Assembly: GCA_017470935.1 (NCBI GenBank)
Contig: JAFUXG010000046.1
Location: 112,297 to 176,296, forward strand
From: Lachnospiraceae bacterium
GTDB lineage: Bacteria; Bacillota; Clostridia; Lachnospirales; Lachnospiraceae
Direction of reading: 5' to 3'
Length of the DNA: 64,000 bases
Numbering within the stretch: position 1 is the stretch's first letter; each line of letters begins with the position of its first letter. A program made the position numbers and the translations under genes. The notes beneath the pieces are model-generated. The model saw nothing but the letters and a program-made list of their open reading frames with translations. It had not been told where the DNA came from and made no database searches. This document shows positions 4,549 through 21,487 of this stretch, one piece after another.

Positions 4549-5259
4549 CTACGTTATTTTCCCAACGTATGCTATATAATCCTGCTTAACCTGCTGAAAT
4601 CTCGCTTTTGGAATTGAAAGCTGTGTTCCATCCTGTAATGTAAGTACATAATTATTAATACTGCGAATATACTGCATATTAACTAAATAGCTCTGATGTA
4701 TACGCAAGAAACCATAACGCTTAAGCATAGTCTCTAACGTATCCAGCTTTTCATATATATGGTAGTATCTGTCTGTTAAATGAATTATGCACTTGTGTCT
4801 GTTATTTTCTAACATCATGATTTCGGAAATATTGAAACGAATCTCTCCTTCAACGCACGAAAGAAGAATAGTTTTTGAACATTGGCGTATCTCTTCGCAG
4901 ATATCATCCATACACTCTGTAAATGCACTATCCAGATTTTCCTTAAAAAGAAATCTGTTAGCTCTGACCTTATATCCATCCAAAGCATGATCCATTAATG
5001 CGGATATCAATATAATGGGAACATCCTTGAATATATCTCTGATTTTTTTTGCAAGCATCAATCCGTTCATATCTTCAAGATTGAAATCTACAAAAATCAT
5101 ATCATAGATTGCTCCGGATTCCATTTTTTCAATAAAATCTGATCCGTTCATATATTCCGTAATTATGAAACCGATATGATTAGAGACATCATATTCCTCT
5201 ATCATATTTCTTAATTTGTTGCGGTCATCCTCTAGGGTATCACAGATTGCAATTCTCAT
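4549..5259 (-). CDS. LytTR-family response regulator
   Basis: 236 residues from the ATG at 5259 (GGAGGGG just upstream; the longer frame to 5280 is less likely). Residues 1-120 are a receiver domain with the acidic pair after AICDTLEDD and the phosphoacceptor Asp in IYDMIFVDFNLEDMNG. Residues about 135-235 are a LytTR DNA-binding domain (SEIMMLENNRHKCIIHLTDR ... FLRIHQSYLVNMQYI). Such regulators control peptide signalling, bacteriocin or surface genes. No histidine kinase lies beside it, so it is an orphan here and its partner must be elsewhere. Confidence 0.93.
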   Translation of the reverse strand: MRIAICDTLEDDRNKLRNMIEEYDVSNHIGFIITEYMNGSDFIEKMESGAIYDMIFVDFNLEDMNGLMLAKKIRDIFKDVPIILISALMDHALDGYKVRANRFLFKENLDSAFTECMDDICEEIRQCSKTILLSCVEGEIRFNISEIMMLENNRHKCIIHLTDRYYHIYEKLDTLETMLKRYGFLRIHQSYLVNMQYIRSINNYVLTLQDGTQLSIPKARFQQVKQDYIAYVGKIT

Positions 5260-5631
5260 AAGATCCCCTCCTTTTGACATTTAATCGAAATCCATTTCTT
5301 ATAATGCAAAAACCGTCTGCTATGAATAATTATCTTAGGATTATCTTACAAATAAATCCATAAGAAAATCATATTTCGCTATAGATTCATACAGGAAAAT
5401 CAAAAGAAGGTACAACAAATAGAAATATCAAAATATAAAAGAATAATTAAAGATATTCTTTGAGTAGATTAGAAATATAAAATTAGCATAAACCTTCCTT
5501 GGTTCCATAATATAAATCCATTTATATTTTTATAATAACATGTGATTAAAAAATGTCAATCAGATAAACAAAAACCGACTGTAAAATAGCATAAAAAGAC
5601 TTTTATTGTAGTCAATTACACATGCAAATGG
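5260..5631. other. AT-rich gap without a gene
   Basis: About 370 nt between the LytTR regulator and the C39-like gene. No ORF with a ribosome site was found on either strand. Two similar short boxes, AAAAACCGTCTGCTA near 5309 and AAAAACCGACTGTAA near 5572, could be regulator sites, but they match only loosely. The gap should hold the promoter of the LytTR gene and the end of the preceding transcript. Confidence 0.5.
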
Positions 5632-6372
5632 CTATATTTTCTTTATTCCAATAATAAGAATCATCCTGCTGCGTCCATCCTTATATCCATCCACTGCAGC
5701 TTTAAGCGTAGGATAACATTTTGCACCCTCATAATCATTATGAGTACGATAGTACTTTCCTTCTTTTGTAACACACATAGTATGTATCATATCACGTATC
5801 GTATGTGCATTGTTATAAGACATAAAGATATATGAATTACATTTATTAATAAAATCATTATATTGATTATAGTCCTTTGAATTTACGTACTCTTTAGTGA
5901 AATCTGTAATTTCAATGCTATCATTATATGATGAACAAATACGCATCCAATTCTTATATGTGTAGCATATGATGTTATATCCAATTGATTTCATATATTT
6001 TATCAAAGCAAATGGTGAAGTTCCAAATGCCCCTAAGCATGTAATACCTTTATGTTCAAACCTTTCCAATAATGTTGGAAAATCGGGTTTATTACCCATG
6101 GCAACAAGAGCGTTATATAAAGCTACAACTTCACAGCTGTTGTAGTCTGCACCATATCTGCTGCCATAAGAAAATTCTGATAATGCCGGCTGGTGTTCTA
6201 TGTATATATCCTTTGAAAATCTGGTTTTATATGACTCCCATGCTATATTGTTACGTTTTAAATGCTCCTCTCTTATTCTTCTTGAAACAGGAATTAAAGA
6301 AAACACTCTGTAAAATAATAAAACAAGAGCGTTCTTTATATAATATGTAATTGTAAATGCATGTTTATCCAT
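5632..6372 (-). CDS. Probable papain-like (C39-like) cysteine peptidase
   Basis: 246 residues with a hydrophobic stretch near residues 10-28 (IKNALVLLFYRVFSLIPV). The segment YGADYNSCEVVALYNAL resembles the catalytic-Cys helix of the peptidase C39/papain fold. It is followed by a GTSPFALIKYMKSIGYN helix and, near the C-terminus, MIHTMCVTKEGKYYRTHNDYEG, which could supply the His and Asn/Asp. The active-site assignment is an inference from this C...H...N order. It could be an unusual transpeptidase or an inactive relative. There is no adjacent ABC exporter or precursor peptide, so a bacteriocin-processing role is not supported. Confidence 0.6.
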   Translation of the reverse strand: MDKHAFTITYYIKNALVLLFYRVFSLIPVSRRIREEHLKRNNIAWESYKTRFSKDIYIEHQPALSEFSYGSRYGADYNSCEVVALYNALVAMGNKPDFPTLLERFEHKGITCLGAFGTSPFALIKYMKSIGYNIICYTYKNWMRICSSYNDSIEITDFTKEYVNSKDYNQYNDFINKCNSYIFMSYNNAHTIRDMIHTMCVTKEGKYYRTHNDYEGAKCYPTLKAAVDGYKDGRSRMILIIGIKKI

Positions 6373-7542: not shown

Positions 7543-8787
7543 TCAGAAATATGCCTTAATATAGATACCGTCATCCCTGTATTCTTCTTCAATAACCTCT
7601 CCGTTTTGCTTTATTTCCGATATCTTTGACATCTCGTTATAATCAAATATCCTTTCAATCAGTTGACGGTCTTCCCGAAGAACACTGTCGATTACTTCCG
7701 GAAGCTTGTCAAGTCCTATTCCATCCTTTGCAGAAATGGAAAGATACTTAACGGCACGGATATCGAACAGCCCCATACGCATATCTTCATCAATAATTTT
7801 ATCGATCTTATTGAAAATGGTAATGACCTTCTTGCCTGTAATCCCAAGCTGGTCAAGGGTGTTATAGGCAACCTTCATCTCTGCAGCTCTATTTTCAGAG
7901 GACGCATCAACAACATGAATAATGTAATCTGCGTACTTTGCTTCTTCCAATGTACTTCTGAAAGCGTCGATCAGATTATGGGGGAGCTTTCTGATAAATC
8001 CAACCGTATCAGTAAGTAAAATCTTCTGTTTCCCTGCAGGTTTCTTATATTCATATACTCTTGTTGTTGTATCAAGGGTTGCAAACAATTTATCCTCAGC
8101 TAAAATTCCTGCACCGGTAAGGGCATTAAGAAGTGTTGACTTTCCAACATTGGTATAACCCACAATGGCAAATACAGGATATCTTCCCTGTTCCCTGCTG
8201 TGTCTTGTGATTTCTCTGTGGGAGGTCATATCATTTATCTCCCGTTTAAGCTGTGCCACTCTTTTTCTAATAACACGCCGATCCTGCTCTAACTTCTTTT
8301 CACCGGGACCTCTTGTGCCGATACCGCCCCCAAGTCTTGACATGGATGTACCCTTTCCTGTAAGTCTTGATAATCTGTACTCTAACTGTGCCAGCTCCAC
8401 TTGCATTTTACCCTCGGAAGTAACAGCATGTGCAGCAAATATATCAAGGATAACCATTGTTCTGTCCATGACCTTGACATCCAGTTCTTTAGACAGTTTT
8501 GCCATCTGAGACGGCGAAAGCTCGTCATCAGTAATTATCCCTGTTGCGTTAGCAGCATAAATTAATGTCTTTAATTCATCAATTTTTCCGCTTCCGATAT
8601 ATGTTGCAGGGTTAAAATGTGGAAGCTTCTGAACAAGTCTTCCCACGACCACGGCACCAGCAGTATTCGCAAGCTCAGAAAGTTCATCTAATGAAGCGTC
8701 TGCATCATAGGAAGATAAACCGCCTGCTTCCGTATCAACCGCAACTAAGATTACATATTCGATTTCTTCTTTGTTTTCGTATAACAT
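7543..8787 (-). CDS. hflX: GTPase HflX
   Basis: 414 residues. The N-terminal HflX domain contains VVGRLVQKLPHFNPATYIGSGKIDEL. A glycine-rich linker follows (GGGIGTRGPGEKKLEQDRR). The GTPase domain has G1 GYTNVGKSTLLNAL, G3 DTVGFIRKLPHNL and G4 NKID. HflX binds the large ribosomal subunit and rescues or splits stalled ribosomes. The stop is TGA, and the same frame stays open for another 36 codons (see findings). The glycosyltransferase gene ends 18 nt upstream, so they may share a transcript. Confidence 0.96.
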   Translation of the reverse strand: MLYENKEEIEYVILVAVDTEAGGLSSYDADASLDELSELANTAGAVVVGRLVQKLPHFNPATYIGSGKIDELKTLIYAANATGIITDDELSPSQMAKLSKELDVKVMDRTMVILDIFAAHAVTSEGKMQVELAQLEYRLSRLTGKGTSMSRLGGGIGTRGPGEKKLEQDRRVIRKRVAQLKREINDMTSHREITRHSREQGRYPVFAIVGYTNVGKSTLLNALTGAGILAEDKLFATLDTTTRVYEYKKPAGKQKILLTDTVGFIRKLPHNLIDAFRSTLEEAKYADYIIHVVDASSENRAAEMKVAYNTLDQLGITGKKVITIFNKIDKIIDEDMRMGLFDIRAVKYLSISAKDGIGLDKLPEVIDSVLREDRQLIERIFDYNEMSKISEIKQNGEVIEEEYRDDGIYIKAYF

Positions 8788-8805: not shown

Positions 8806-10047
8806 TCAGTCACCCGTCACATATTGCTCAATAGCATCAGCCGCAGCCTTCACGCCTTCCTCCCTGCGAATCCTTTCTCCCGCATCTGTCGCACCCTTAT
8901 CGTATATCCCACTTACCAGATCCTTAAGGGCATTCTCAATCTCCTCCACACTGCACAACCCGTTTCTGATATATAGCGGTGCCGGTCCTGCTCCGATACG
9001 GTTATCCATTCTTCCGTAGAAATACTGATCAAGTGCCAGCGGTATCACAAGCGTTGGCAGCCCTGCACGAAGCCCTAATCCGTTCGTGGTGTTGCCTCCA
9101 TGATGGACTACCGCCCTGACCTTCTTAAATATATACGAATACGGCACAGCTCCGATGAAATACAGCCTGTCCGTATTGACACGATCTGCATCCGATATCT
9201 GCTCTGCCTGAATAACTGCACGGATTCCTGTGTTCTTAACTGCCTTTAATGTTCTCACCTGAAGCTCGGCAAGCTCCTCTGACTCCGCCTTTCCAAAGGC
9301 GACAAAAATCGGCTTGTCCCCGGCTTCGAGAAATGCCTTCAGCTCCTCCGGTTCATTGTAATCAGCCTCCGCTTCTTCCGGATGATACCAGTATCCGGTC
9401 ACATGGATATGCTCTCCCCATGCAGGATCCGGCTTCATCATTACCCTGCTTGTAGGATAAAATGTAAGCAGCTTCCGACCATTCATCTCAGTGTAGGTGC
9501 TGCCTATCCTCCACTTGGGAAGTCCCACGGATTTTCTCCATTTATTAAGCGCTATCATAGTCATAAGGTTCATTCCTGTGGGAAGACCATTATAGCTTTT
9601 CAACACCTTGTCAGAATCATATTCATCCGAATACAGTGAATATTGTCTCGTAGGATCCATCGGGCTGTAAAAATGTCTCACGCATGGAATGCCCAGATAC
9701 TCTGCCGCGTGGTACGCAAAGGCAGAACATGTTCCGTACATCACAAGATCGGAGCCCTTTATTGCGGAAAGTGTCTGTTCCATAAATGCAGGATTCTCCT
9801 TCTTCAATTTGAACATTCCCTTCATAAAATCCATACTGGTCTTGTACTCTGCAACAAGATACTGCATTACATGATCGGCATCCGTATCCAGCTTAAAAAA
9901 CGTAACACCCTTCTTCTCTATAAGCGGTTTGAATGCCTCATGTGTGAGAATGCGAAAATCATGTCCCCTCTCTATCATCTCCTCTCCAAGCTCCGCAAGG
10001 GGATTCACATCCCCACGTGTTCCTACCGCAACTGCTGTAATAATCAT
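8806..10047 (-). CDS. UDP-glycosyltransferase (GT1-like)
   Basis: 413 residues, two Rossmann halves (GT-B). The N-terminus MIITAVAVGTRGDVNPLAELG is the acceptor-side signature of this group. The C-terminal donor-binding block VVHHGGNTTNGLGLRAG followed by PLALDQYFYG matches the H-GG-x-x-T nucleotide-sugar motif. Members glycosylate lipids, sterol-like compounds, antibiotics or other small molecules; the acceptor here is unknown. GC content is slightly higher than in the neighbours. Two overlapping micro-ORFs and a strong promoter lie directly upstream. Confidence 0.9.
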   Translation of the reverse strand: MIITAVAVGTRGDVNPLAELGEEMIERGHDFRILTHEAFKPLIEKKGVTFFKLDTDADHVMQYLVAEYKTSMDFMKGMFKLKKENPAFMEQTLSAIKGSDLVMYGTCSAFAYHAAEYLGIPCVRHFYSPMDPTRQYSLYSDEYDSDKVLKSYNGLPTGMNLMTMIALNKWRKSVGLPKWRIGSTYTEMNGRKLLTFYPTSRVMMKPDPAWGEHIHVTGYWYHPEEAEADYNEPEELKAFLEAGDKPIFVAFGKAESEELAELQVRTLKAVKNTGIRAVIQAEQISDADRVNTDRLYFIGAVPYSYIFKKVRAVVHHGGNTTNGLGLRAGLPTLVIPLALDQYFYGRMDNRIGAGPAPLYIRNGLCSVEEIENALKDLVSGIYDKGATDAGERIRREEGVKAAADAIEQYVTGD

Positions 10048-10054
10048 TTCACCC

Positions 10055-10153
10055 TTAATCCTCCATTTCCGACATTTTACTCAATGAATCAAAGTATTCC
10101 AACCGCATCGTCTTTGCGTCCGAAATAATGTCAAGCTTTATTTTGTTATCCAT
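10055..10153 (-). CDS. Micro-ORF of 32 residues with KTMRLE motif
   Basis: ATG at 10153 with AGGTG 7 nt before it, ending 7 nt before the glycosyltransferase start. The product is MDNKIKLDII, then SDAKTMRLEYFDSL, then a Met/Glu-rich tail. It overlaps the end of the preceding 23-codon hydrophobic ORF. The KTMRLE core recurs at 463-552. It may couple translation into the glycosyltransferase or be a remnant of a larger gene. Confidence 0.45.
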   Translation of the reverse strand: MDNKIKLDIISDAKTMRLEYFDSLSKMSEMED

Positions 10154-10209
10154 GCAATCACCTGTACCAAGATACCCACCAGAACACACACCGGCAGTCC
10201 GATTACCAT
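10138..10209 (-). CDS. Hydrophobic 23-residue micro-ORF
   Basis: ATG at 10209, with AGGAAG about 10 nt upstream. The product is essentially one membrane helix (MVIGLPVCVLVGILVQVIAW) ending in Thr-Lys. Its stop overlaps the start of the 32-codon ORF in another frame. It is the first ORF after a near-consensus promoter at 10244-10271. It could be a small membrane peptide, a leader peptide, or the tail of a decayed membrane-protein gene whose frame is also open upstream of the ATG. Confidence 0.35.
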   Translation of the reverse strand: MVIGLPVCVLVGILVQVIAWITK

Positions 10210-10243
10210 TCCCTTAAGGCTTCCTATTGCATGAAACTCATCT

Positions 10244-10271
10244 ATTATACCAAGCTATAAACAGCGGTCAA
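10244..10271 (-). promoter_or_regulatory. Near-consensus sigma-A promoter
   Basis: Minus strand TTGACC, 16-nt spacer, TATAAT. Transcription would start near 10237 and read through the two micro-ORFs into the glycosyltransferase. Confidence 0.75.
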
Positions 10272-10284
10272 TGCAAAACATACA

Positions 10285-10322
10285 AAAGTGATATAGTTAG
10301 ATTTTTCTAACTATATCACTTT
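10285..10322. terminator. Long perfect hairpin, probable terminator
   Basis: 16-bp inverted repeat (AAAGTGATATAGTTAG / CTAACTATATCACTTT) around a 6-nt T-rich loop. It lies between the end of the ABC permease (10377) and the promoter at 10244-10271, so it should separate the two minus-strand transcripts. Confidence 0.7.
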
Positions 10323-10376
10323 ACCAAAACAAATTCAATATATCAATTTTGTGATCACATAGGTTTAAACATAAGT

Positions 10377-12449
10377 CTACCCCTTTATCATCCTTCTGCT
10401 TGTAAAATAAGTCACCAGAAAATACCCTCCATAAATGAGCACTATAACTAAAGAAGTCATGACGATGGAACTTCCAAGCTCTGAGCCTGTATCGAAGGTT
10501 TCCAGAACGAGATTCGCCATCTTGAGACCGAATACGGAGTGAATCACTGCCAATAACATAGGAAACAGGAAGAAAATGCCAATCTGCTTGAACAACGCAC
10601 CGTTGATCATCCGCTCGTCAGTTCCCAATTTTCTTAATATCATGAACCGCTCCACATTGTCAGCACTTTCGGAAAGCTCCTTTAATGCTAGCACCGCAGC
10701 ACTTGCCATCAGAAACACAATGCCCACATACAGACCGATAAAGGTAATCATAGCCCCAAGTCCCACTGTACTTTCAGTGACATATCTTCTGCTCTCCATA
10801 CTTATCAGGGTATCAACAGTCCACATCCGTTTTAACATACTTTGAAGTTCCTTCTCGATTGCGTCCCCATCTTCCTCATTATCTGCTCTGTAATTTGCTA
10901 TCAGCATATTAGTAGATACTGCACCTTCATCCACAACAGCATCCGGAACAACAAAAATACCAATGTTAATATGATTTGAGGAAATAGAGATAAAACCATC
11001 CTGACACTCGCCGTATTTGCTTTGCAGTTCATGTCCGAATATGGAAGCATTTCTGCCATTCTTCAATACCTGATTCCGCACCTCTACCATACTGGCAAAA
11101 TCTGCCACCAGCACATATTCATCATCCTTTAATGTGAAGGTCTCTTTTCCATACGCCTTAGCCACCTTGTTATAATCAGAGAGCTTCATGATCATTTCCT
11201 TTTGTTCAGCAAATATAAATGTGTAATAATTTTCCATATCATTTATAATGTCTCCCATAGAATCTCCCATGGTGAAATTATCATCCTCATAGGTATTCAC
11301 CTCAACAATATCTGTAAGCTTATCATCCACATCAAAACCATTTTGTTGAAGCGTTTCCCTGATGCTCACCTTAGAATCGGCAAGTAATGCCTCCCGATTC
11401 TCATAATCCTCAAGCTCATCCTCCGTCATATTACATTTTTTCTCAAGATTAACATCACAGGGTGTCATCTCCCTTATATTCTTGTTCATGGACTGACTTA
11501 AAGAAAATGCAGTACCAAGCATACATATCGTAAGGAACAGCATCAGACAGATTATGGTCATGGCAAAAACCATGGTATTTGCCTTGCTTGAAAACTGACG
11601 AAGAACAAAGCTGTTCAGCTTTCGGTAATATACACTCTTAATCCTTGTGAAAATGGTCAGCAGCATTCCCGACACCGACCAGAAGATGAAGAAGGTAGAT
11701 ACCGAACCCATCACAATTACCTTAATCATATCCGAGCTTGCATCCATGTCATACAGATTAACTGTAACCTGATAATAGGCATAGCCCAACACCACTGCGG
11801 ATATAATGAATATGATGGAACATAGGATTGGATTTTTCAGCTTCAGCTTCTCACTTTTCTTTGACGCATATAGCAGATCGATAAGCTTGCATTTACCGAT
11901 AGAAATGGTATTAAATAATATCACAACCACATACATGATACCAAAGTATATACAGGTCTTTACAAAGGATTCCTTAGAAAATGTAAATGTATATCTGCTC
12001 ATATCTGCCTCGAAAATATCAGCCACAAGAACGCTCATAAACTGGGATATCACAACTCCGATAATAAGTCCCACCAGCAGAGAAAGGATTCCCACCACAA
12101 CAGTCTCTATCAGTAGTATACCCGACATTTTCCGTTTGCTCATGCCAAGGGTTAAGTATATGCCAAACTCCTTGTTCCTCCGCTTAATAAGAAAGCGGCT
12201 TGCATAGACAATAAGCGCACCCAGTACGACTGCCACAAACACACTGACACCGCTCAATGTTGTGTTCATCAATTCGATGATTTCGTGGGTGGTATCGTTG
12301 ACATTCAGCATTACGGTCTGGGATTCCAACGCATTGAAGATATAGAATATAGTAACGCCTATCACTAGGGTGAAAAAATATATGGCATAATCCCTTATGC
12401 TTTTTCCGAGGTTTTTAATCGCTATCTTAAAGAGCATCGCTGACGTCAC
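10377..12449 (-). CDS. Bce-type ABC transporter permease
   Basis: 690 residues with the FtsX/BceB layout: one N-terminal helix (YAIYFFTLVIGVTIFYIF), clusters of helices, a large extracellular loop (about residues 325-545), and a terminal helix set. These permeases remove or sense peptide antibiotics that bind cell-wall lipid intermediates. It overlaps the ATPase gene by 23 nt, so translation is coupled. A matching sensor kinase and regulator lie 2.5-4 kb upstream, separated by an unrelated ATPase unit. Confidence 0.92.
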   Translation of the reverse strand: MTSAMLFKIAIKNLGKSIRDYAIYFFTLVIGVTIFYIFNALESQTVMLNVNDTTHEIIELMNTTLSGVSVFVAVVLGALIVYASRFLIKRRNKEFGIYLTLGMSKRKMSGILLIETVVVGILSLLVGLIIGVVISQFMSVLVADIFEADMSRYTFTFSKESFVKTCIYFGIMYVVVILFNTISIGKCKLIDLLYASKKSEKLKLKNPILCSIIFIISAVVLGYAYYQVTVNLYDMDASSDMIKVIVMGSVSTFFIFWSVSGMLLTIFTRIKSVYYRKLNSFVLRQFSSKANTMVFAMTIICLMLFLTICMLGTAFSLSQSMNKNIREMTPCDVNLEKKCNMTEDELEDYENREALLADSKVSIRETLQQNGFDVDDKLTDIVEVNTYEDDNFTMGDSMGDIINDMENYYTFIFAEQKEMIMKLSDYNKVAKAYGKETFTLKDDEYVLVADFASMVEVRNQVLKNGRNASIFGHELQSKYGECQDGFISISSNHINIGIFVVPDAVVDEGAVSTNMLIANYRADNEEDGDAIEKELQSMLKRMWTVDTLISMESRRYVTESTVGLGAMITFIGLYVGIVFLMASAAVLALKELSESADNVERFMILRKLGTDERMINGALFKQIGIFFLFPMLLAVIHSVFGLKMANLVLETFDTGSELGSSIVMTSLVIVLIYGGYFLVTYFTSRRMIKG

Positions 12450-13194
12450 CTCCCAACAGTGAGATTACATCAATGATCTCGCCGAAGAATTCCTTTCTGG
12501 CTCTGCCTCCCCGCATGATCTCATTGAACATTTTTCCATCCTTGATGAAGATGACACGGCTGGCGTATGAAGCGGTAAATGCATCATGTGTAACCATCAA
12601 AATGGTGGCGTCCAGGCCTTCATTTAAGTAGCGGAAGCTTTCCAACAGCATTTTTGAGGACTTGGAATCCAAGGCTCCTGTCGGCTCGTCGGCAAGCACC
12701 AGCTTCGGGTCTGTGACAATCGCCCTCGCCGCTGCAATGCGCTGCTTCTGCCCGCCGCTCATCTGATAGGGGTATTTGTTAAGAACATCTTCTATCCCCA
12801 GCTCCTTTGCGGTCTGATTCACCCTGTTAGCAATTTCATTCTTGGAAATATTCTGAATGGAAAGTGCCAGAGCTATATTCTCATATGCCGTTAAGGTATC
12901 TAACAGATTGAAGTCCTGAAAGATGAAACCAAGCTCCTCCCTTCGGAACTGATTAAGTGAATTGCCCTTTAGCTTTGTGATGTCCTGCCCTGCCACATAG
13001 ATGTGGCCTGATGTCACCTTGTCAATGGTGGAAATGCAGTTAAGAAGTGTAGTCTTACCTGAGCCTGATGCTCCCATGATCGCCACATACTCCCCCTTCT
13101 CCACCACAAAGGACACATTATCAAGTGCCTTTGTCAGGGATGATTTGCTGCCGTAGTATTTCTCTACATGCTCGATTGATAATATTGTTTCCAT
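12427..13194 (-). CDS. Bce-type ABC transporter ATP-binding protein
   Basis: 255 residues from the ATG at 13194 (AAGGAG 8 nt upstream). It has Walker A GASGSGKTTLLN, Q-loop FIFQDFNLL, signature MSGGQKQRIAAARAI, Walker B LVLADEPTGALD and switch His VTHD. It pairs with the downstream permease, whose start lies inside this gene. The leader contains an inverted repeat (13206-13240) that ends right at the ribosome site. Confidence 0.95.
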   Translation of the reverse strand: METILSIEHVEKYYGSKSSLTKALDNVSFVVEKGEYVAIMGASGSGKTTLLNCISTIDKVTSGHIYVAGQDITKLKGNSLNQFRREELGFIFQDFNLLDTLTAYENIALALSIQNISKNEIANRVNQTAKELGIEDVLNKYPYQMSGGQKQRIAAARAIVTDPKLVLADEPTGALDSKSSKMLLESFRYLNEGLDATILMVTHDAFTASYASRVIFIKDGKMFNEIMRGGRARKEFFGEIIDVISLLGGDVSDAL

Positions 13195-13205
13195 AGTGTA
13201 CTCCT

Positions 13206-13255
13206 TTTCTGTAGACATTTTATGTTTCTTTCTACAGAAATTATAGTTATATTAT
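13206..13255 (-). promoter_or_regulatory. Shared -10 block with inverted repeat, ABC operon
   Basis: The minus strand reads ATAATATAACTATAAT (13240-13255), then the 10-bp arms TTTCTGTAGA / TCTACAGAAA (13206-13215 and 13231-13240) with a 15-nt spacer, then AAGGAG. The block ATTATAGTTAT on the plus strand recurs upstream of trpS and of the small gene at 42674, again next to an inverted repeat. It is a likely promoter with an operator or leader hairpin near +1. Confidence 0.55.
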
Positions 13256-13322
13256 GTTCTGCTGTCGCTCGTTCAATATTACCGAACCTTACAATTTTGT
13301 AACATATAAAAAAATTAAAAGA

Positions 13323-13346
13323 AAAGTCCTGCTTTTGCAGAACTTT
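13323..13346 (-). terminator. Terminator of the AAA-DUF4143 gene
   Basis: 10-bp stem (AAAGTTCTGC / GCAGGACTTT on the minus strand, with G-U pairing) and AAAA loop, followed by TCTTTTAATTTTTTT. It lies 22 nt after the gene stop at 13368. Confidence 0.85.
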
Positions 13347-13367
13347 CCGGCATATTCTCCAGTCTCA

Positions 13368-14663
13368 CTATTTTAAAAGATCTTCATCTAATAAGAACTG
13401 TTCAATACCCATGTAAGTGATTCCTCTTTCATCCTGCCACGGTTTAAGATAATCACGTACAACAACAATCTTACTGAAGGAATCAGGTATTCGCACCAGA
13501 GATGCTGTCTCCTGTTCTTTCTTATCCGGGTCTGCTATCGATAACGCCGACTGAATATAGAATCTCCTGCCACCCTTGTTAACAACAAAGTCAACCTCCA
13601 ACTGCTTGCGTATTTTCTTACCGGAGGAATCCTTTGTATTATATTCCACAACTCCTACATCCACATTCATACCCCTGCGAACGAGATCATTGTATATTAC
13701 ATTTTCCATGATATGTGTTTCCTCTAACTGTCTAAAACCCAGTCTGGCATTGCGAAGTCCCAGATCAGTATAGTAGTATTTTGCAGGAGTACCAATATAC
13801 TTCCTACCCTTAACATCATATCGAGCTGCTTTTTTTATCAAGAACGATTCCTCAAAATAACTGATATATTTTTCTATAGTTTCCGAGCCGATGGAAATCT
13901 GGCGTTCGCTTTTGAATGTATTTGCCAACTTGCTCGGATTAGTAAATGATCCTATTCCGGATGCAAGAATATCAAGCAGTATATCCAGTACCTCAGTGTC
14001 ATTCTTTATTTCATGGCGTTCAAGCACATCTTTTATATATGTCCGATCAAAGAGATCATTTAAGTACTGACTCTTATCCTCATGTGTTTCCATTGACAGT
14101 GCAAGCGGCATGCCTCCATAGGTATAATAGTCCTGCCATGCTCCACGCTTATCCCCTTCGTATGATTCATAAAATTCTGCAAAAGAAAGAGGATACATGC
14201 GTATCTCGTCTCCTCTGTCTCTAAAATTTGTCAATATATCAGATGATAACATTTTGGAATTGCTCCCGGTAATATATACATCAGCATTTTGCATCTGCAT
14301 AAAACCAAGGACAACATCAATAAATGTTATTTTTGCATCTGCATTATCTACATACGGATTCTGGATTTCAGAAACAAACTGTATCTCATCGATGAAAATA
14401 TAGTATTTTTTCCGGACATCGACCATATGCTCTCGTATAAATTTATCCAGTTCCATCGGATTACGGTACTTGGCATTCTCTAAAATATCCAATGCTAATG
14501 CAATGATCTGATCCTCATGGATGCCTTCACCCAAAAGCCAATCACGATATAACTGAAAAAGTAAAACAGATTTTCCACTTCTACGAAGACCTGTTATTAT
14601 CTTAATTCGCCCATTATCCTTTTTTGAAATCAATTTATTTAAATATTGTTTTCTGGGATACAT
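13368..14663 (-). CDS. AAA ATPase with DUF4143 domain
   Basis: 431 residues from the ATG at 14663 (GAGGT 7 nt upstream). It has Walker A GLRRSGKSVLLFQL, Walker B YYIFIDEIQFV and sensor VYITGSNSKML. A winged-helix-like segment (SIGSETIEKYISYFEESFLI) is followed by DUF4143, with a PD-(D/E)XK-like core (RKQLEVDFVVNKGGRRFYIQSAL). The family is widespread, often in multiple copies, with unclear function; roles in defence or regulation have been suggested. It forms an independent unit with its own promoter, flanking palindromes and terminator, sitting inside the Bce-type module. Confidence 0.92.
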   Translation of the reverse strand: MYPRKQYLNKLISKKDNGRIKIITGLRRSGKSVLLFQLYRDWLLGEGIHEDQIIALALDILENAKYRNPMELDKFIREHMVDVRKKYYIFIDEIQFVSEIQNPYVDNADAKITFIDVVLGFMQMQNADVYITGSNSKMLSSDILTNFRDRGDEIRMYPLSFAEFYESYEGDKRGAWQDYYTYGGMPLALSMETHEDKSQYLNDLFDRTYIKDVLERHEIKNDTEVLDILLDILASGIGSFTNPSKLANTFKSERQISIGSETIEKYISYFEESFLIKKAARYDVKGRKYIGTPAKYYYTDLGLRNARLGFRQLEETHIMENVIYNDLVRRGMNVDVGVVEYNTKDSSGKKIRKQLEVDFVVNKGGRRFYIQSALSIADPDKKEQETASLVRIPDSFSKIVVVRDYLKPWQDERGITYMGIEQFLLDEDLLK

Positions 14664-14684
14664 ATTTTGACCTCGTGATTTTTT

Positions 14685-14698
14685 TGCGGTTATCCGCA
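14685..14698. repeat. Palindrome copy 1 (TGCGGTTATCCGCA)
   Basis: TGCGGTTATCCGCA: 5-bp arms around TTAT, flanked by T-runs on the plus strand. It lies between the -10 at 14713 and the ribosome site, so it would be near +15 of the transcript. It is the same element as at 14758-14775. Confidence 0.75.
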
Positions 14699-14712
14699 TT
14701 TTTTTTATATAT

Positions 14713-14741
14713 AATATATCATTTACCATTTGTCACGTCAA
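14713..14741 (-). promoter_or_regulatory. Promoter of the AAA-DUF4143 gene
   Basis: Minus strand TTGACG, 17-nt spacer, TATATT. It is bracketed by the two palindromes, which looks like an operator arrangement for self-regulation or for an unknown repressor. Confidence 0.7.
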
Positions 14742-14757
14742 TATATTTAATGAAAAA

Positions 14758-14775
14758 ATTGCGGTTATCCGCAAT
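14758..14775. repeat. Palindrome copy 2 (ATTGCGGTTATCCGCAAT)
   Basis: 7-bp arms around TTAT, centred about 75 bp from copy 1 and just upstream of the -35. On the minus strand it is followed by a T-run, so it might also terminate the sensor-kinase transcript. Confidence 0.75.
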
Positions 14776-14902
14776 TTTTTTCATACATAAACATTTATTA
14801 ATATTTAAAACTTTTACTTTGGCTTCTTTAACATTATAAGAAGTATCTCCAATATATACCTATCCAATTCTCCGTTTCCATAAGTATTATTTTGAGTCTC
14901 AA

Positions 14903-15925
14903 TTAATTATTATGAAAAGTAATACAGACTCTCGTATACTCTCCCTGCTCGGATTCAATGTTAATGCTATGACCTAATTTCCGGCACAGTTCCTTTGTAA
15001 TATGTAATCCCATACCCGTTGATTTTGAACGGATCCTCCCATTATATCCGGTAAATGATTTTTCAAATACCCTGCCTATATCCTCAGATGGAATTCCAAT
15101 TCCGTTGTCCTCGATATACAGACAGACAGCCATTCTATCTTCCATTTTATTTTCTGCCCATATATGGATATATGAATCAACATTATCACGCTTGTATTTG
15201 ATGCTGTTGTTCATAATCTGTCCGAGTATAAATGTTATCCATTTCATATCAGTAATGACATGTGTTACATATTCTTCTGATGTATTATAATCAACAACAA
15301 GTTCAATCCCGCTCTCCAACAGATCATCCTTATACTTAAGTGCCACATCACGAACAATCTCGGACAGTGCAGTTTTTGCTATTCTGTAATCCTTCTCGGC
15401 ATTCTCAGACCTGGCATAGTAAAGCACCTGCTCCACATAGTTTTCTATTCTGCGAATATCCTTCAGATTCTTCTTATCCTCATCCCTTCCGCTATTATGA
15501 ATTCTTAAGGACAGTGCCGCAAGTGGAAGCTTGACCTCATGAATCCACATTTCAATATATTCCTTGAACTGTTCGTTATGAAGTTCTAATTCCTTAACAT
15601 TTTCTGTCATGGATTTATCAATGTCATATAGTGCATTGCATAATATTTTTCCATCGAGAAATTCGGGCTCAGAGAGTGTTTCCAGCACCAGATACGCCTT
15701 GTCAAGCCGTTCTACATTGGATAATAGTTCATTATAGAAATGTTTTCTTCTGTAATACCCGTATAAAGTAAAAATGATAAGACAGATAATCATTATGGAT
15801 AATACCATGAACATAAGAGAAGCATTTACACGAAATACCGCAAGCAGATATCCGATAAATGCAATCGCCGCAACAGACACAGACAGATAGAACACCTTGT
15901 CCTTAATATACTCCGAAAATCTCAT
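14903..15925 (-). CDS. BceS-like intramembrane-sensing histidine kinase
   Basis: 340 residues. Two helices near residues 12-30 and 35-56 are separated by only a few residues, the hallmark of kinases that sense through their transporter. The phosphoacceptor is in WIHEVKLPLAAL. The N box is FILGQIMNNSIKY, G1 is DNGIGIPSEDIGRVFEKSF and G2 is TGMGLHI. It overlaps the regulator gene by 4 nt. It is expected to respond to peptide antibiotics together with the ABC pair downstream. Confidence 0.94.
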   Translation of the reverse strand: MRFSEYIKDKVFYLSVSVAAIAFIGYLLAVFRVNASLMFMVLSIMIICLIIFTLYGYYRRKHFYNELLSNVERLDKAYLVLETLSEPEFLDGKILCNALYDIDKSMTENVKELELHNEQFKEYIEMWIHEVKLPLAALSLRIHNSGRDEDKKNLKDIRRIENYVEQVLYYARSENAEKDYRIAKTALSEIVRDVALKYKDDLLESGIELVVDYNTSEEYVTHVITDMKWITFILGQIMNNSIKYKRDNVDSYIHIWAENKMEDRMAVCLYIEDNGIGIPSEDIGRVFEKSFTGYNGRIRSKSTGMGLHITKELCRKLGHSINIESEQGEYTRVCITFHNN

Positions 15926-16821
15926 TGTAATATATACCCCTGTCCCTTTCTTGTATCGATTGCATTCTCCACTCCGGCTTCACGCAGCTTGCTTCTTAGA
16001 CGGCTGATGTTGACCGTCAGTGTATTGTCATTGACGAATTCATTGTTGTTCCAAAGATCCGTTATTAGCTCATCCCTGGTAACAATACGGTTTTGATTAT
16101 TAAGAAGATATGAGAAAATGAGCATCTCGTTCTTGGTAAGAAGTATCTCCTGTGTAGCATCTGTGCTACCGATGTAAGTTGAACTGTCAATATCTTTGCT
16201 CTCATATTTCTTTTTTGTTGATACTTTTGTATCAGTCATTACTTCATTACATAAAGACATGTCATCATTTATCAAGTCATTATGTCCTATAGCATCTGCC
16301 ATGCCATCATCTACCCTGACCTCTCCTGCCTTATCATATATAGTGTTTCCAATCACATTATTTCCCTTGACCTCAACCGGCAATTCCCTGCGCAGAACAC
16401 CTTTGCGCATATCCACCGTAAGTCCACGGTACCTTAACTCATCAGACACACTCCCCATACGTTTGAAAATATTGTTGATTCTAAGAAGTAAAAGTGTCGG
16501 ATTGTAAGGCTTTGTGATATAATCATCCGCCCCATAGCTCATGGAAAGCACTTCGTCCATCTCGGTATTACGGCTTGTCACCATGATTACCGGAACATCA
16601 GACTCCCTGCGAAGCTCCTTCAATAACACTTCACCATTTATATAAGGTATATTGATGTCTAACAATATCAGATCGGCATTTGCTGTTAGCATAAGCTCCT
16701 TGGCACTTTTGAAATCATAAAGTACCTCAGTCTCATATCCTGCATTTTTCAAAAGCACCTCTAATTCCTCACTGATATCCTTATCGTCCTCCACTATTAG
16801 TATCTTTTTTGAACTAGTCAT
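15922..16821 (-). CDS. OmpR-family response regulator with inserted linker
   Basis: 299 residues, about 70 more than usual. The receiver has acidic ED at 11-12, phosphoacceptor Asp55 (LILLDINIP) and Lys104 (ITKPYNP). The winged helix starts normally (LRYRGLTVDMRKGVLRRELP, about 129-148), is interrupted by a polar Asp/Asn/Thr-rich segment (about 151-225), and resumes at LLTKNEMLIFSYLL through VNISRLRSKLREAG. The insertion falls in the N-terminal beta hairpin of the DNA-binding domain. The start has AGGAGC upstream. It is the partner of the overlapping kinase. Confidence 0.93.
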   Translation of the reverse strand: MTSSKKILIVEDDKDISEELEVLLKNAGYETEVLYDFKSAKELMLTANADLILLDINIPYINGEVLLKELRRESDVPVIMVTSRNTEMDEVLSMSYGADDYITKPYNPTLLLLRINNIFKRMGSVSDELRYRGLTVDMRKGVLRRELPVEVKGNNVIGNTIYDKAGEVRVDDGMADAIGHNDLINDDMSLCNEVMTDTKVSTKKKYESKDIDSSTYIGSTDATQEILLTKNEMLIFSYLLNNQNRIVTRDELITDLWNNNEFVNDNTLTVNISRLRSKLREAGVENAIDTRKGQGYILQ

Positions 16822-16859
16822 TTCATCTGCTCCTATCTATTTGTCGGAATAACAACATC

Positions 16860-17426
16860 TTATTCAGTATTGTTATTCTCCACGTCAATACTTTCAAACT
16901 CATATTTAATCCTTTTATTTGCATTAACGTGGATATGATATATGTTATAGCATTTTATTTTTCCAAATTCAGGAATCCTTACAGTAAATGTGCAGTCACC
17001 CTCATTTACTCCTTTGATTCTCCATTCTATTCTTCTGCTTGTTAAGCCGAGAGGAATAATCGGACCATTGCTTACACTAATTACATCAGGATTATCGACC
17101 TCATATAGTATTTCTTCTGCGTATTCCCATTTTCTGATAATAAGTGTATTGCCTCTGTAAAAAGCACCTGTCGAAATCGTAAGGCTTATATAGTAAATGA
17201 AAAGTAATGACAATATTATAAAAACAATTATCGAAGCAACGACTTTCTTAAATTGCTTTTTACAAAGGCTATGTATTGCATATGCAAGCGGAACAATAGG
17301 AATGAGCCATGTGAAATAAGTCCAAACAAACCAGACGAATGAAACAACTCCACCACATAGATAAATCAGCCATATAAGCACAATAATTCCCAATATTATA
17401 AGTAATTGTTGTATTTTTTTTTTCAT
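16860..17426 (-). CDS. Membrane protein of unknown function
   Basis: 188 residues with hydrophobic helices near 7-27, 28-48 and 63-87. A beta-rich C-terminal part follows (NTLIIRKWEYAEEILYEVDNPDVISVSNGPIIPLG ... GVNEGDCTFTVRIPEFGKIKC), probably outside the membrane, with a protease-inhibitor or Ig-like feel. GAGGAATCT precedes the start. It lies downstream of a small membrane protein gene in the same direction. No family was recognised. Confidence 0.7.
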   Translation of the reverse strand: MKKKIQQLLIILGIIVLIWLIYLCGGVVSFVWFVWTYFTWLIPIVPLAYAIHSLCKKQFKKVVASIIVFIILSLLFIYYISLTISTGAFYRGNTLIIRKWEYAEEILYEVDNPDVISVSNGPIIPLGLTSRRIEWRIKGVNEGDCTFTVRIPEFGKIKCYNIYHIHVNANKRIKYEFESIDVENNNTE

Positions 17427-17512
17427 AGATTCCTCAAAAAAGCATTATCAAAAAACCAGATATAAATTATTATTCTTCATCTTTTCTTCTATCTTCTTTG
17501 TATTTTTTTATC

Positions 17513-17758
17513 TTAAAAAAAAAATAACGTATAAATTGTTATATACGCTCCATATAATAAAATAATTTGCAATTTCCAATTATTTGATTCCATTACAAAC
17601 CAGAACAGTCCAACTAATGTATAAAGCATTCCCGAATTAGCTTGAATATACTGATTAGTAGCACCATTATATAAACGTACAAAATCCTTAACATTAGCTA
17701 AAATTAAAAGTAGAACAACAATTATAGAACCTATTATTTGCCCTGTTTCTCCTGTCAT
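17513..17758 (-). CDS. Small membrane protein ending in a poly-T tract
   Basis: 81 residues with about three hydrophobic stretches (IIGSIIVVLLLILANV, GMLYTLVGLFWFVM, WKLQIILLYGAYITIYTLFFF). Ribosome site GGAGAG. The 3' end is a run of 10 T, encoding Phe-Phe-Phe-stop. With one T fewer, the frame would continue into a basic tail (KIKKYKEDRRKDEE), which looks like a normal cytosolic end for such a protein. This suggests a slippage site, recent frameshift or sequencing slip. Confidence 0.6.
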   Translation of the reverse strand: MTGETGQIIGSIIVVLLLILANVKDFVRLYNGATNQYIQANSGMLYTLVGLFWFVMESNNWKLQIILLYGAYITIYTLFFF

Positions 17759-17835
17759 TTTTCATACTCTCCTGAAAATATTAAGTAAAGGCAAAACCAT
17801 CATCATAAAATGAAATTATATAATAACAAATTCAT

Positions 17836-17867
17836 TTCGCCTTCATCAGATACGTTATTTCCTCTTT
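17836..17867 (-). repeat. Duplicated 3' end of the VWA gene (copy A)
   Basis: On the minus strand it encodes EEITYLMKAK-stop, nearly the exact end of the VWA protein (EAITYLMKAK-stop). A core of 20 identical bases, TTCGCCTTCATCAGATACGT, extends to about 32 bp with two mismatches. It is 670 bp from copy B (18506-18537), and the toxin-antitoxin pair lies between. It has no start codon or gene context, so it is a scar. Confidence 0.85.
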
Positions 17868-17878
17868 TTTGTTTCTAA

Positions 17879-18154
17879 TTAAAACAGATCACTATGTGTT
17901 CCCGTTCTCGTTAAATACAATACTAATTCTCGCTCCACAATTTCATATATAAGTAACCAATCCGGAGTGATATGACATTCTCTACATCCTTCAAAAACGC
18001 CACTTAACGAATGATCTCTATACTTTTCAGGTAACGCATTACCATCTGCAAGTATTTTAATAACATTAGTTAGTAAACTAATGTCATAGCCCCTTTTCTT
18101 AGCGCGTTTTAAATCTTTTTGAAATTTAGAGGTAGGTTTAATAACATATTTCAT
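17879..18154 (-). CDS. yafQ: YafQ-family toxin (type II, RelE-like)
   Basis: 91 residues. The N-terminus YVIKPTSKFQKDLKRAKKRGYDISLL, the middle PEKYRDHSLSGVFEGCRECHITPDWLLIYEI and the C-terminal VLYLTRTGTHSDLF match YafQ, a ribosome-dependent mRNA endonuclease. Family catalytic positions are visible: His in DHSL, the HITPDW segment and the terminal THSDLF. It overlaps the antitoxin gene by 4 nt. The stop lies 11 nt from the duplicated VWA end. Confidence 0.92.
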   Translation of the reverse strand: MKYVIKPTSKFQKDLKRAKKRGYDISLLTNVIKILADGNALPEKYRDHSLSGVFEGCRECHITPDWLLIYEIVERELVLYLTRTGTHSDLF

Positions 18155-18426
18155 ATCAGTAAATCCTTCATCATTGTATCTACATCAGAATAGGTCTTAC
18201 CCAAAGTGGGATCTGCTTTCATTTTCTTAACCTCATCTAATGCTTCAAGAGTATCATCATTTGGTCTTTCGGCGCCTATTTCAAAAGGTATTCTATATTC
18301 TCTTACTGCTTTTTTTGCAAATATATTGAATGCTGTTGTCATTGTCATTCCCATGTCTGAGCAAAAACTATTGAATTGATTTTTCAATTCACTATCCATA
18401 CGGATACTCACATTAGTCTGTGCCAT
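18151..18426 (-). CDS. dinJ: DinJ/RelB-family antitoxin
   Basis: 91 residues. The N-terminal ribbon-helix-helix TNVSIRMDSELKNQFNSFCSDMGMTMTTAFNIFAKKAVRE is the DNA-binding part, and the acidic C-terminal tail should bind the toxin. AAGGAG precedes the start. The pair is expected to repress its own promoter at 18450-18478, whose spacer holds an imperfect palindrome. Confidence 0.93.
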   Translation of the reverse strand: MAQTNVSIRMDSELKNQFNSFCSDMGMTMTTAFNIFAKKAVREYRIPFEIGAERPNDDTLEALDEVKKMKADPTLGKTYSDVDTMMKDLLI

Positions 18427-18449
18427 AAAATCAACTCCTTTCTACATAT

Positions 18450-18478
18450 ATTGTATTGCATATTATGTGCATTGTCAA
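18450..18478 (-). promoter_or_regulatory. dinJ-yafQ promoter with operator
   Basis: Minus strand TTGACA, 17 nt, TACAAT. Within the spacer, TGCACATAATATGCA is an imperfect palindrome, a plausible DinJ operator. Confidence 0.75.
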
Positions 18479-18501
18479 TAAAACTCATGTATATTTTACA
18501 A

Positions 18502-19701
18502 CTACTTCGCCTTCATCAGATACGTAATTGCCTCTTTAAGCCCGTCCACCGACAGCGTATACATATGATAAAGCTTCGACAACGCATCCTCCGACTCCAT
18601 CCACTGCATTCTTGTAAGTTCCTTGTGATACCGGGGATTTAGCCATACGCATTTCTTGTACTTAGAAAGTAATAGCTGGTTCCACTCATACCCCGACATC
18701 CCGTCATTGGGTCCCCTGTAATTACCGTTCTTGTCAAACAGCTCCTCCGGTGCCATCTGAGCATCTCCCACGATTATCACCTTGTAATCCTTGTCGTAGT
18801 GCTTGAACAGATAATCAAGATCAACCCAGTCCCCATACTCACATTCTGCCGTTTTATACGCCTTAGAATAAATGCAGTTATGGAAATAATAGGTCTGCAC
18901 ATCCTTGAAATGGTTTGCCTTGTTCACCGCCTGAAACAGCTCGTTGCAAAGCTCCATAAATGGTATCATTGTGCCTCCGCAGTCGAAAAAGAGCAGCAGC
19001 TTTACGGTGTTCTTCCTCGGACGGTCAAATTCCAACTGGAGATACCCGCCATTGTCGCAGGTTTTCTGAATGGTAGTGTCAATATCCAATTCCGTCCTTG
19101 GCACATCAAGCCTTGAGGAATACTGGCGAAGCCTTCTGAATGCCACCTGATACTGTCTTGTATTCAATACCTTGTCATTCCTGAAATCCTCAAATCTCCG
19201 CTCTCCCATGACCTGAAATGCACTCTGCATTCCACCCTGTGCACCAACTCTGATACCGCCCACATTTCTTCCATGGTGGCCAAATGCAGAGCCGCCCGCA
19301 GTACCGATCCAGTGGTTTCCGCCGTTGTGCTCCGACTTCTGCTCTGCAAGACGCTCACGAAACAGTCTCTTTACCTCATCCGAGGTCCTCGTCTGGTCGT
19401 AGGAATACATCTCCCGGTTCTGCTTGTCGAATTCCATCTCGTCTCCCTTGTCAAGCCACTCCATAAGCTCCATAGGAAGCACATTTTCCGACGCAATATC
19501 GTGAAAATACTCCGCAAATGCCATATCAAATTTGTCATAGTCGGATTCAGATTTCACAAGGATCATACGGCTCACATAATAAAACCTTGTAAAATCAGAA
19601 TCCACAAGTCCCTTGTCCAAGGCATCCATAAGCGTCAGCCATTCCGTCATGGAAACCTCTAATCCCTTCGCCTTTAATGTGTAGAAAAATTCCTGAAACA
19701 T
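18502..19701 (-). CDS. VWA-domain protein (CoxE/MoxR-associated)
   Basis: 399 residues. The helical N-terminal part is typical of MoxR-partner VWA proteins (FFYTLKAKGLEVSMTEWLTLMDAL). The VWA domain starts at VKLLLFFDCGGTMIPF (a DxGGT form of the metal site), with VGDAQMAP downstream. Such proteins work with MoxR-type AAA ATPases to insert cofactors or remodel complexes. A MoxR gene is at 24319-25134, not adjacent. The last codons are duplicated at 17836-17867. The ribosome site AAGGAG is good and GC content is above the local average. Confidence 0.88.
   Translation of the reverse strand: MFQEFFYTLKAKGLEVSMTEWLTLMDALDKGLVDSDFTRFYYVSRMILVKSESDYDKFDMAFAEYFHDIASENVLPMELMEWLDKGDEMEFDKQNREMYSYDQTRTSDEVKRLFRERLAEQKSEHNGGNHWIGTAGGSAFGHHGRNVGGIRVGAQGGMQSAFQVMGERRFEDFRNDKVLNTRQYQVAFRRLRQYSSRLDVPRTELDIDTTIQKTCDNGGYLQLEFDRPRKNTVKLLLFFDCGGTMIPFMELCNELFQAVNKANHFKDVQTYYFHNCIYSKAYKTAECEYGDWVDLDYLFKHYDKDYKVIIVGDAQMAPEELFDKNGNYRGPNDGMSGYEWNQLLLSKYKKCVWLNPRYHKELTRMQWMESEDALSKLYHMYTLSVDGLKEAITYLMKAK
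18506..18537 (-). repeat. 3' end of the VWA gene (copy B)
   Basis: The in-place copy of the 32-bp repeat, coding for the last residues of the VWA protein. It pairs with 17836-17867 and together they bracket dinJ-yafQ and its promoter. Confidence 0.85.
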
Positions 19702-21397: not shown

Positions 21398-21487
21398 AAA
21401 CTTTCAACCCAACCATTTGTACCCCGCATATTGGTCAGCGGCAAACTTTCAACCCAACCATTTGTACCCCGCATATTGGTCAGCGGC
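21398..21487 (-). repeat. Two perfect 45-bp tandem repeats
   Basis: Copies at 21398-21442 and 21443-21487 are identical base for base; a third begins (6 bases) and then diverges. They form the body of the type III antitoxin RNA. Confidence 0.97.

Follow-up and report, generated by a model that had tools for sequence, protein, structure and literature searches.

How does a toxin-antitoxin (TA) operon come to lie between two copies of the 3' end of the gene beside it? The question is raised by a stretch of 64,000 nt of Lachnospiraceae DNA, here called the window (contig JAFUXG010000046.1 of assembly GCA_017470935.1, which comprises 75 contigs and is 78% complete). In the window, a dinJ-yafQ pair is present immediately downstream of a VWA-like gene, and the tail of that gene is found on either side of the pair (Table 1). 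The answer that we consider probable is that dinJ-yafQ was inserted with a long, variable duplication of its target, a pattern that TA modules of several kinds show in this bacterial family.

Table 1. Features of the VWA/dinJ-yafQ locus, with the putative insertion, in window positions
Feature	Positions	Strand	Basis
Original downstream flank of the VWA gene	17806..17831	minus	directly after the single tail in G004 (23/26)
Outer repeat copy plus stop codon, a vestigial gene tail	17832..17867 (32-bp repeat 17836-17867)	minus	sequence
Putative inserted unit, 638 bp, between the two repeat copies	17868..18505	minus	ORFs, end comparison
yafQ toxin, 91 aa	17879..18154	minus	PF15738, E 1.6e-35
dinJ, RelB-family antitoxin, 91 aa	18151..18426	minus	PF04221, E 5.9e-16
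Promoter-like stretch before dinJ, inside the unit	18435..18478	minus	read from sequence
Inner repeat copy, now the working end of the VWA gene	18506..18537	minus	sequence
VWA-like host gene, 399 aa, 3' end duplicated	18502..19701	minus	ORF, weak PF05762, homologues

The repeat and the unit that it encloses

The two tails form a direct repeat in which 30 of 32 bases are identical, 20 of them in a row, at a spacing of 670 bp. By chance, the best 32-base match to the VWA tail is 22/32, a value reached in 4 of 2000 first-order Markov resamples of positions 16801-18505. No third copy of the tail is present within the 64-kb window, where the next best match is 20/32. When 381 kb of genus DNA (the window plus 22 loci) is scanned for repeat pairs 250-3000 bp apart, the VWA-tail pair is the strongest, and three pairs score at least 20. 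Thus, the duplicated gene end around dinJ-yafQ that was remarked on in the first-pass annotation is real and far beyond chance. The label of the gene is weak, since its match to PF05762 (VWA_CoxE) reaches 19.7 bits versus a cut-off of 26.4.

The outer copy reads on for four bases to a stop codon of its own, giving KEEITYLMKAK and stop (17867-17832); the working end of the VWA gene reads KEAITYLMKAK and stop, the inner copy closing with AAG TAG. Since the two copies have the tail in common and not the stop codon, the present stop of the VWA gene lies at the edge of the inserted unit. Over the whole of the two tails 5 of 36 bases differ, so either the insertion is not fresh or the tails come from separate sources.

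Among the ORFs of the 638-bp unit there is no recombinase or transposase gene, and only dinJ and yafQ have a family match; the earlier remark that no integrase lies inside is borne out by these ORFs and matches. Both Pfam matches (PF04221 for dinJ and PF15738 for yafQ) are above the cut-off, and the start of yafQ overlaps the stop of dinJ by 4 bases. With these matches and this overlapping operon, the pair is predicted to be a type II TA module of the dinJ-yafQ type. The promoter-like stretch before dinJ contains a candidate TTGACA (18478-18473) and, after 17 bp, TACAAT (18455-18450), followed by AAGGAG (18440-18435). Terminal inverted repeats are absent from the unit, the longest exact inverted match of its 45-base ends being 5 bp.

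An empty site in a related species

Homologues of the VWA gene are present in 22 of 25 congeners, and the related loci compared come nearly all from MAGs. In one congener, G004, a single VWA tail is followed directly by DNA like the outer flank of the window, with which it agrees at 23 of 26 bases (versus 6 of 26 for the inner flank). This place, in one genome of another species, is the apparent empty site, with a single copy of the tail at the orthologous position. Because the G004 tail is joined to the outer flank, the outer copy and its flank would be older, and dinJ-yafQ would have been added later together with a second tail. The pair thus appears to have been inserted, and the VWA gene end restored. 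This is what the first-pass annotation had proposed, and the empty site that it had suggested seeking in the VWA 3' flanks of relatives is the one found in G004.

Neither of the two arrangements named in advance as speaking against an insertion, namely both tails without the TA genes in relatives or an old tandem tail belonging to the VWA family, was seen in the related loci examined. In 22 such loci no second tail was detected downstream of the VWA gene (best match 22/33, versus 19-22 in shuffles) in a search that covered up to 8 kb per locus, with less than 6 kb in four loci and less than 300 bp in two of these. Using tblastn with the proteins of the window, no dinJ or yafQ was found downstream of the VWA gene in the 22 loci.

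Behind its single tail, G004 holds pieces of orf188 (16860-17426), corresponding to window positions 16873-16943 and 17147-17166. One orf188 piece shared by the window and G004 spans 71 bases at 97% identity. As the VWA genes of the window and G004 are 82-83% identical, this suggests that the flank here has been exchanged between species. The window and G004 tails are themselves close (33/36), which could mean that both arrived with an element; this reading was dropped, since 11% of other stretches of the VWA gene are equally similar.

The flank on the 3' side of the VWA gene varies. From the VWA gene to the gene for an hflX-like GTPase (7543-8787), the distance is about 10 kb in the window (8806-18505), against about 1.7 and about 0.1 kb in G004 and G014, respectively, and in the window the flank also contains a two-component system and an ABC transporter.

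Brackets around other TA modules

A search of 299 genomes from the bacterial family found YafQ in 93. A locus was scored as bracketed when an ungapped direct repeat (+1/-2, score at least 17, spacing 200-2000) had copies at most 800 bp from the toxin gene. The count took in 96 of the 101 YafQ loci recognised (102 of 127 places listed) and 37 of 38 YoeB loci (among 50 places listed). For comparison, 70 loci of GNAT acetyltransferase genes were taken from a longer list, and 1440 overlapping intervals were taken in 40 arbitrarily chosen 20-kb stretches, which come from 38 genomes of this family.

Brackets were found at 9 of 96 YafQ and 2 of 37 YoeB loci (together 11/133), compared with 1 of 70 GNAT loci, at score 17, and 17 of 1440 intervals, 7 of these 17 being in one repeat array. 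The Fisher value is 0.04 versus the GNAT genes, which are unmatched to the TA loci for accessory-island position, and 6e-6 versus the intervals, which overlap and make that value indicative only. When the score is raised to at least 24, the numbers are 9/133 for TA, 0/70 for GNAT and 10/1440 for the intervals (5 of the 10 in the array just mentioned), with Fisher values of 0.02 and, again indicative only given the overlap, 8e-6. Under this uniform test 122 of the 133 TA loci are without a bracket, as is expected if repeats decay, decay being a supposition. The movement of a TA cassette in this way had been called unusual in the first-pass annotation; the word is apt insofar as a minority of TA loci is involved (11/133) and misses the recurrence of the arrangement within the family.

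Other ways of counting were also used. In a first pass of 31 loci with 500-bp flanks, two brackets were present (L096, score 16, and L093, score 15) that were lost at 400-bp flanks. With 400-bp flanks, 8 of 88 YafQ loci have a bracket at a score of at least 16 (90 loci, 2 of them without a usable flank); for swapped flanks the number is 1/801 and for fixed intervals 2/789, one of the two being the VWA-tail pair itself. Counted by unit, brackets occur at 6 of 88 YafQ units versus 5 of 1480 pseudo-units (a single repeat array accounts for 3 of these), and a smaller count gave 2/30 for YoeB and 0/30 for GNAT. Outside the main count are L176 of the smaller count (26 bp, spacing 1549), which exceeds the 800-bp limit, L137 (score 16), L084 (46 bp, spacing 2113) and two loci with repeat arrays, L109 and L133. 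L423 (28 bp, score 19) is inside it, yet looks weak. None of seven E. coli TA loci of six systems (K-12 dinJ-yafQ, yefM-yoeB, yafNO, mqsRA and mazEF, and the ccd locus of two strains) has a bracket, the sole straddling repeat with a score of at least 13 being one of 13 at yafNO.

The repeats themselves are 32 bp in the window and 28 to about 220 bp at the other bracketed YafQ/YoeB loci, and their sequences are mutually unrelated. Several are gene 3' ends: the tail of queA in G259 (25/28, with the stop codon as its last bases), that of an ABC transporter gene plus about 50 bp past it in G065 (about 150 bp in total), and the tail of a small HTH gene around a YefM-YoeB pair in G160 (123 bp, 2 differences). 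In G136, the repeat is a terminator-like hairpin, and in G069 it is the 5' end of a sugar-nucleotide dehydratase-like gene (about 220 bp), the remnant differing from the complete gene in its encoded amino acids. Repeats in G182, G335 and G105 consist of DNA without a recognised gene, the G182 bracket being diverged over about 190 bp, and G071 has a short 28-bp repeat. Ten units that were measured are 577-982 bp long, about one TA operon each. Like the unit in the window, they have no terminal inverted repeats (longest exact inverted match of the 45-base ends, 6 bp).

Empty sites were not obtained for three of these loci. The relatives of G259 (queA) have 58-76% protein identity and downstream DNA that is not comparable; for G065 (ABC tail) there are weaker matches only; and for the yefM-yoeB locus of G105 the upstream gene is present in three congeners with no downstream match.

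TA islands and the footprint outside TA modules

An island of TA genes in G244, which lies between a gene read from its sequence as flagellin and a glycosyltransferase gene, contains nested repeats. Between the copies of an 89-bp repeat are a small ORF and a PIN-domain gene; these two and a ParE/RelE-like gene are spanned by a 26-bp repeat, and 31 bases of the end of that RelE-like gene recur beyond yafQ (score 16, outside the main count). In G360 and G371, the genes that flank the island are direct neighbors, about 100-130 bp apart, and in G356 and G376 one different gene is present between them; the TA genes of the island are found at that place in none of these four congeners. The one terminator between the flanking genes in G360 matches both G244 copies, and G360 is thus, by its sequence, the likely single-copy empty site for the island. 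The G244 repeats (L324 3945-4069, 4736-4824 and 5354-5379) carry a terminator-like hairpin and a promoter-like stretch, so that at least two TA operons begin downstream of copies of one upstream sequence.

In G184, repeats are found around a pair of HEPN and nucleotidyltransferase genes and around dinJ-yafQ, and in G308 a repeat of about 170 bp around a RelB-type antitoxin adjoins dinJ-yafQ. The nested repeats of G244 and G184 suggest that islands may grow stepwise, a new module entering the one inserted before it or the DNA beside that one.

TA modules are not alone in having the footprint, since other segments are bracketed as well and the control intervals contain some pairs. A 40-bp repeat in G184 (L318 4640-4679 and 5967-6006), of which the end of a tyrosine integrase gene is part, brackets a 367-aa ORF without a Pfam match (4767-5870) and no recognised TA gene. 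We take the EGREEG-rich C-terminus of this ORF to be reminiscent of Rpn/PDDEXK proteins. At L113, a duplicated non-TA segment adjoins yafQ. In a control stretch of G184 (L243 12903-13011 and 13700-13808), a 109-bp gene fragment is present upstream of the complete gene, presumably uvrB-like, with a small ORF and no TA gene between.

Alternative explanations

Some integrative elements use the 3' end of a gene as their attachment site, and the dinJ-yafQ unit is like them in that a duplicated gene end restores the target gene. The VWA tail might accordingly be an attachment core for a tyrosine or serine recombinase acting in trans, with the unit bringing the core and restoring the gene. In favor of this, the element-side copy rebuilds an exact gene end, the outcome of classical integration at the 3' ends of genes, and a core of 20 identical bases is available. 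However, unlike those elements, the unit is of sub-kilobase size, contains no recombinase gene and has no core in common with the other insertions. The exact 20-base core has 0 matches in viral contigs, and the 32-base pattern (up to 3 mismatches, 26 genus genomes) occurs twice in the genome of the window, once in G004 and nowhere else. The other bracketed TA loci carry unrelated sequences of varied lengths, among them a terminator and the 5' end of a gene, and these fit variable target duplication rather than one recombinase core. A fixed attachment core is not supported by these results. The comparison with an attachment-site duplication made in the first-pass annotation likewise finds no support, and in place of the 20-base core that it suggested seeking near other TA pairs, unrelated repeats are found there. 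Site-specific integration is very unlikely for the locus in the window, and as a general rule for TA modules it is largely refuted.

Two further explanations concern the origin of the second tail. By one-sided homologous recombination, a donor with dinJ-yafQ behind its own VWA gene would have crossed over with the recipient within VWA and been joined illegitimately 36 bases before the recipient's stop, so that the two tails would be of different origin; this is a sub-mechanism that gives the same product. The 5/36 differences between the tails, the lack of a common stop codon and the divergence of other brackets (G182) are consistent with it. However, no donor is found among the 22 related loci, where dinJ and yafQ are absent downstream of VWA, and the G160 bracket is nearly identical, as a plain duplication predicts; this route is therefore unlikely, if less so than site-specific integration. 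Least probable is that a second VWA gene once stood in tandem, on the far side of the TA pair, and decayed until the outer tail was all that was left of it. Gene decay does occur at the site, where G004 retains pieces of orf188 only. However, the 22 related loci contain no second copy or longer remnant near VWA, and like brackets are present around TA modules at genes unrelated to VWA.

Mechanism and retention

In an insertion with target duplication, the reading that we prefer, a dinJ-yafQ module with a promoter of its own, about 0.64 kb in size, would have entered near the 3' end of the VWA gene, of which roughly the last 33 bases were duplicated. The inner copy would then complete the VWA gene, and the outer copy would be displaced to the far side along with the original downstream DNA. 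At the joining step, a staggered break may have captured a fragment that bore the TA genes, or one-sided recombination may have been completed by an illegitimate second join; neither would involve a dedicated integrase. Break capture and one-sided recombination from a donor strain have the same end product; nearly identical copies (G160) favor break capture, and diverged copies (G182 and the window) allow one-sided recombination. Direct backing for the insertion reading comes from just one or two empty sites, those of G004 and G360. Together, the loci suggest that TA pairs may enter chromosomes by a target-duplicating route without an integrase of their own.

Once inserted, the TA pair would be retained, because precise excision between the repeats would remove the antitoxin. 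Addiction could thus explain why the footprint survives: direct repeats as long as these invite precise excision, by which the gene is restored and neutral cargo lost, whereas the loss of a TA pair would leave toxin without antitoxin. Against such retention for some modules stands a result given in a passage of a TA review (PMC2654758), in which dinJ-yafQ and ccdO157 of E. coli did not prevent deletion where tested. A broader proposal, which we put forward only tentatively and regard as doubtful, is that type II TA modules are recombinase-free, self-locking mobile units, which would be captured with duplication of the target, keep the host gene whole and poison excisants, and whose islands would grow by successive insertions.

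Relation to known systems

The original description of long target duplication for restriction-modification (RM) systems is reportedly that of Nobusato, Uchiyama, Ohashi and Kobayashi (2000, Gene 259:99-108). "Insertion with long target duplication" was found by Nobusato and colleagues in Helicobacter pylori, often with RM genes, according to the passage on it in PMC1643837. RM systems of all types are said, in the passages concerned, to produce long target duplications of variable length when they insert (PMC3031569; similarly PMC3874152), which are of the order of 100 bp (PMC3874152). As far as these passages go, the present case is alike in being a small addictive unit with no transposase, variable direct target repeats and a single-copy empty site; terminal inverted repeats are also absent. 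It differs in its cargo, which is dinJ-yafQ and not an RM system, in its hosts (Lachnospiraceae-like rumen and gut bacteria versus Helicobacter) and in that some repeats are shorter (28-33 bp). It would thus work alike with a different cargo class. Addiction is common to RM and TA genes and is for this reason proposed to underlie the survival of the footprint.

No report of long target duplication of TA modules was found in the open-licence literature searched, and TA modules appear to be an unreported class of cargo for it. The finding would set them beside RM genes, another addictive cargo with the same footprint on record. This footprint, a variable target duplication plus an empty site with one copy, lends itself to counts over many genomes and to laboratory test. 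In Arabidopsis, gene transposition has placed non-transposon genes between direct repeats of host sequence, and the orthologous site also carried the repeat in 13 of the 18 cases in which it exceeded 30 bp (PMC2869330). Unlike the TA modules, the genes in that account are those of a plant and are without addictive cargo.

Other repeats

At L133 (635-1139), an array of repeats of about 35 bases adjoins the yafQ locus and looks CRISPR-like by eye. In the window, positions 21398-21487 consist of a 45-base unit in two exact tandem copies.
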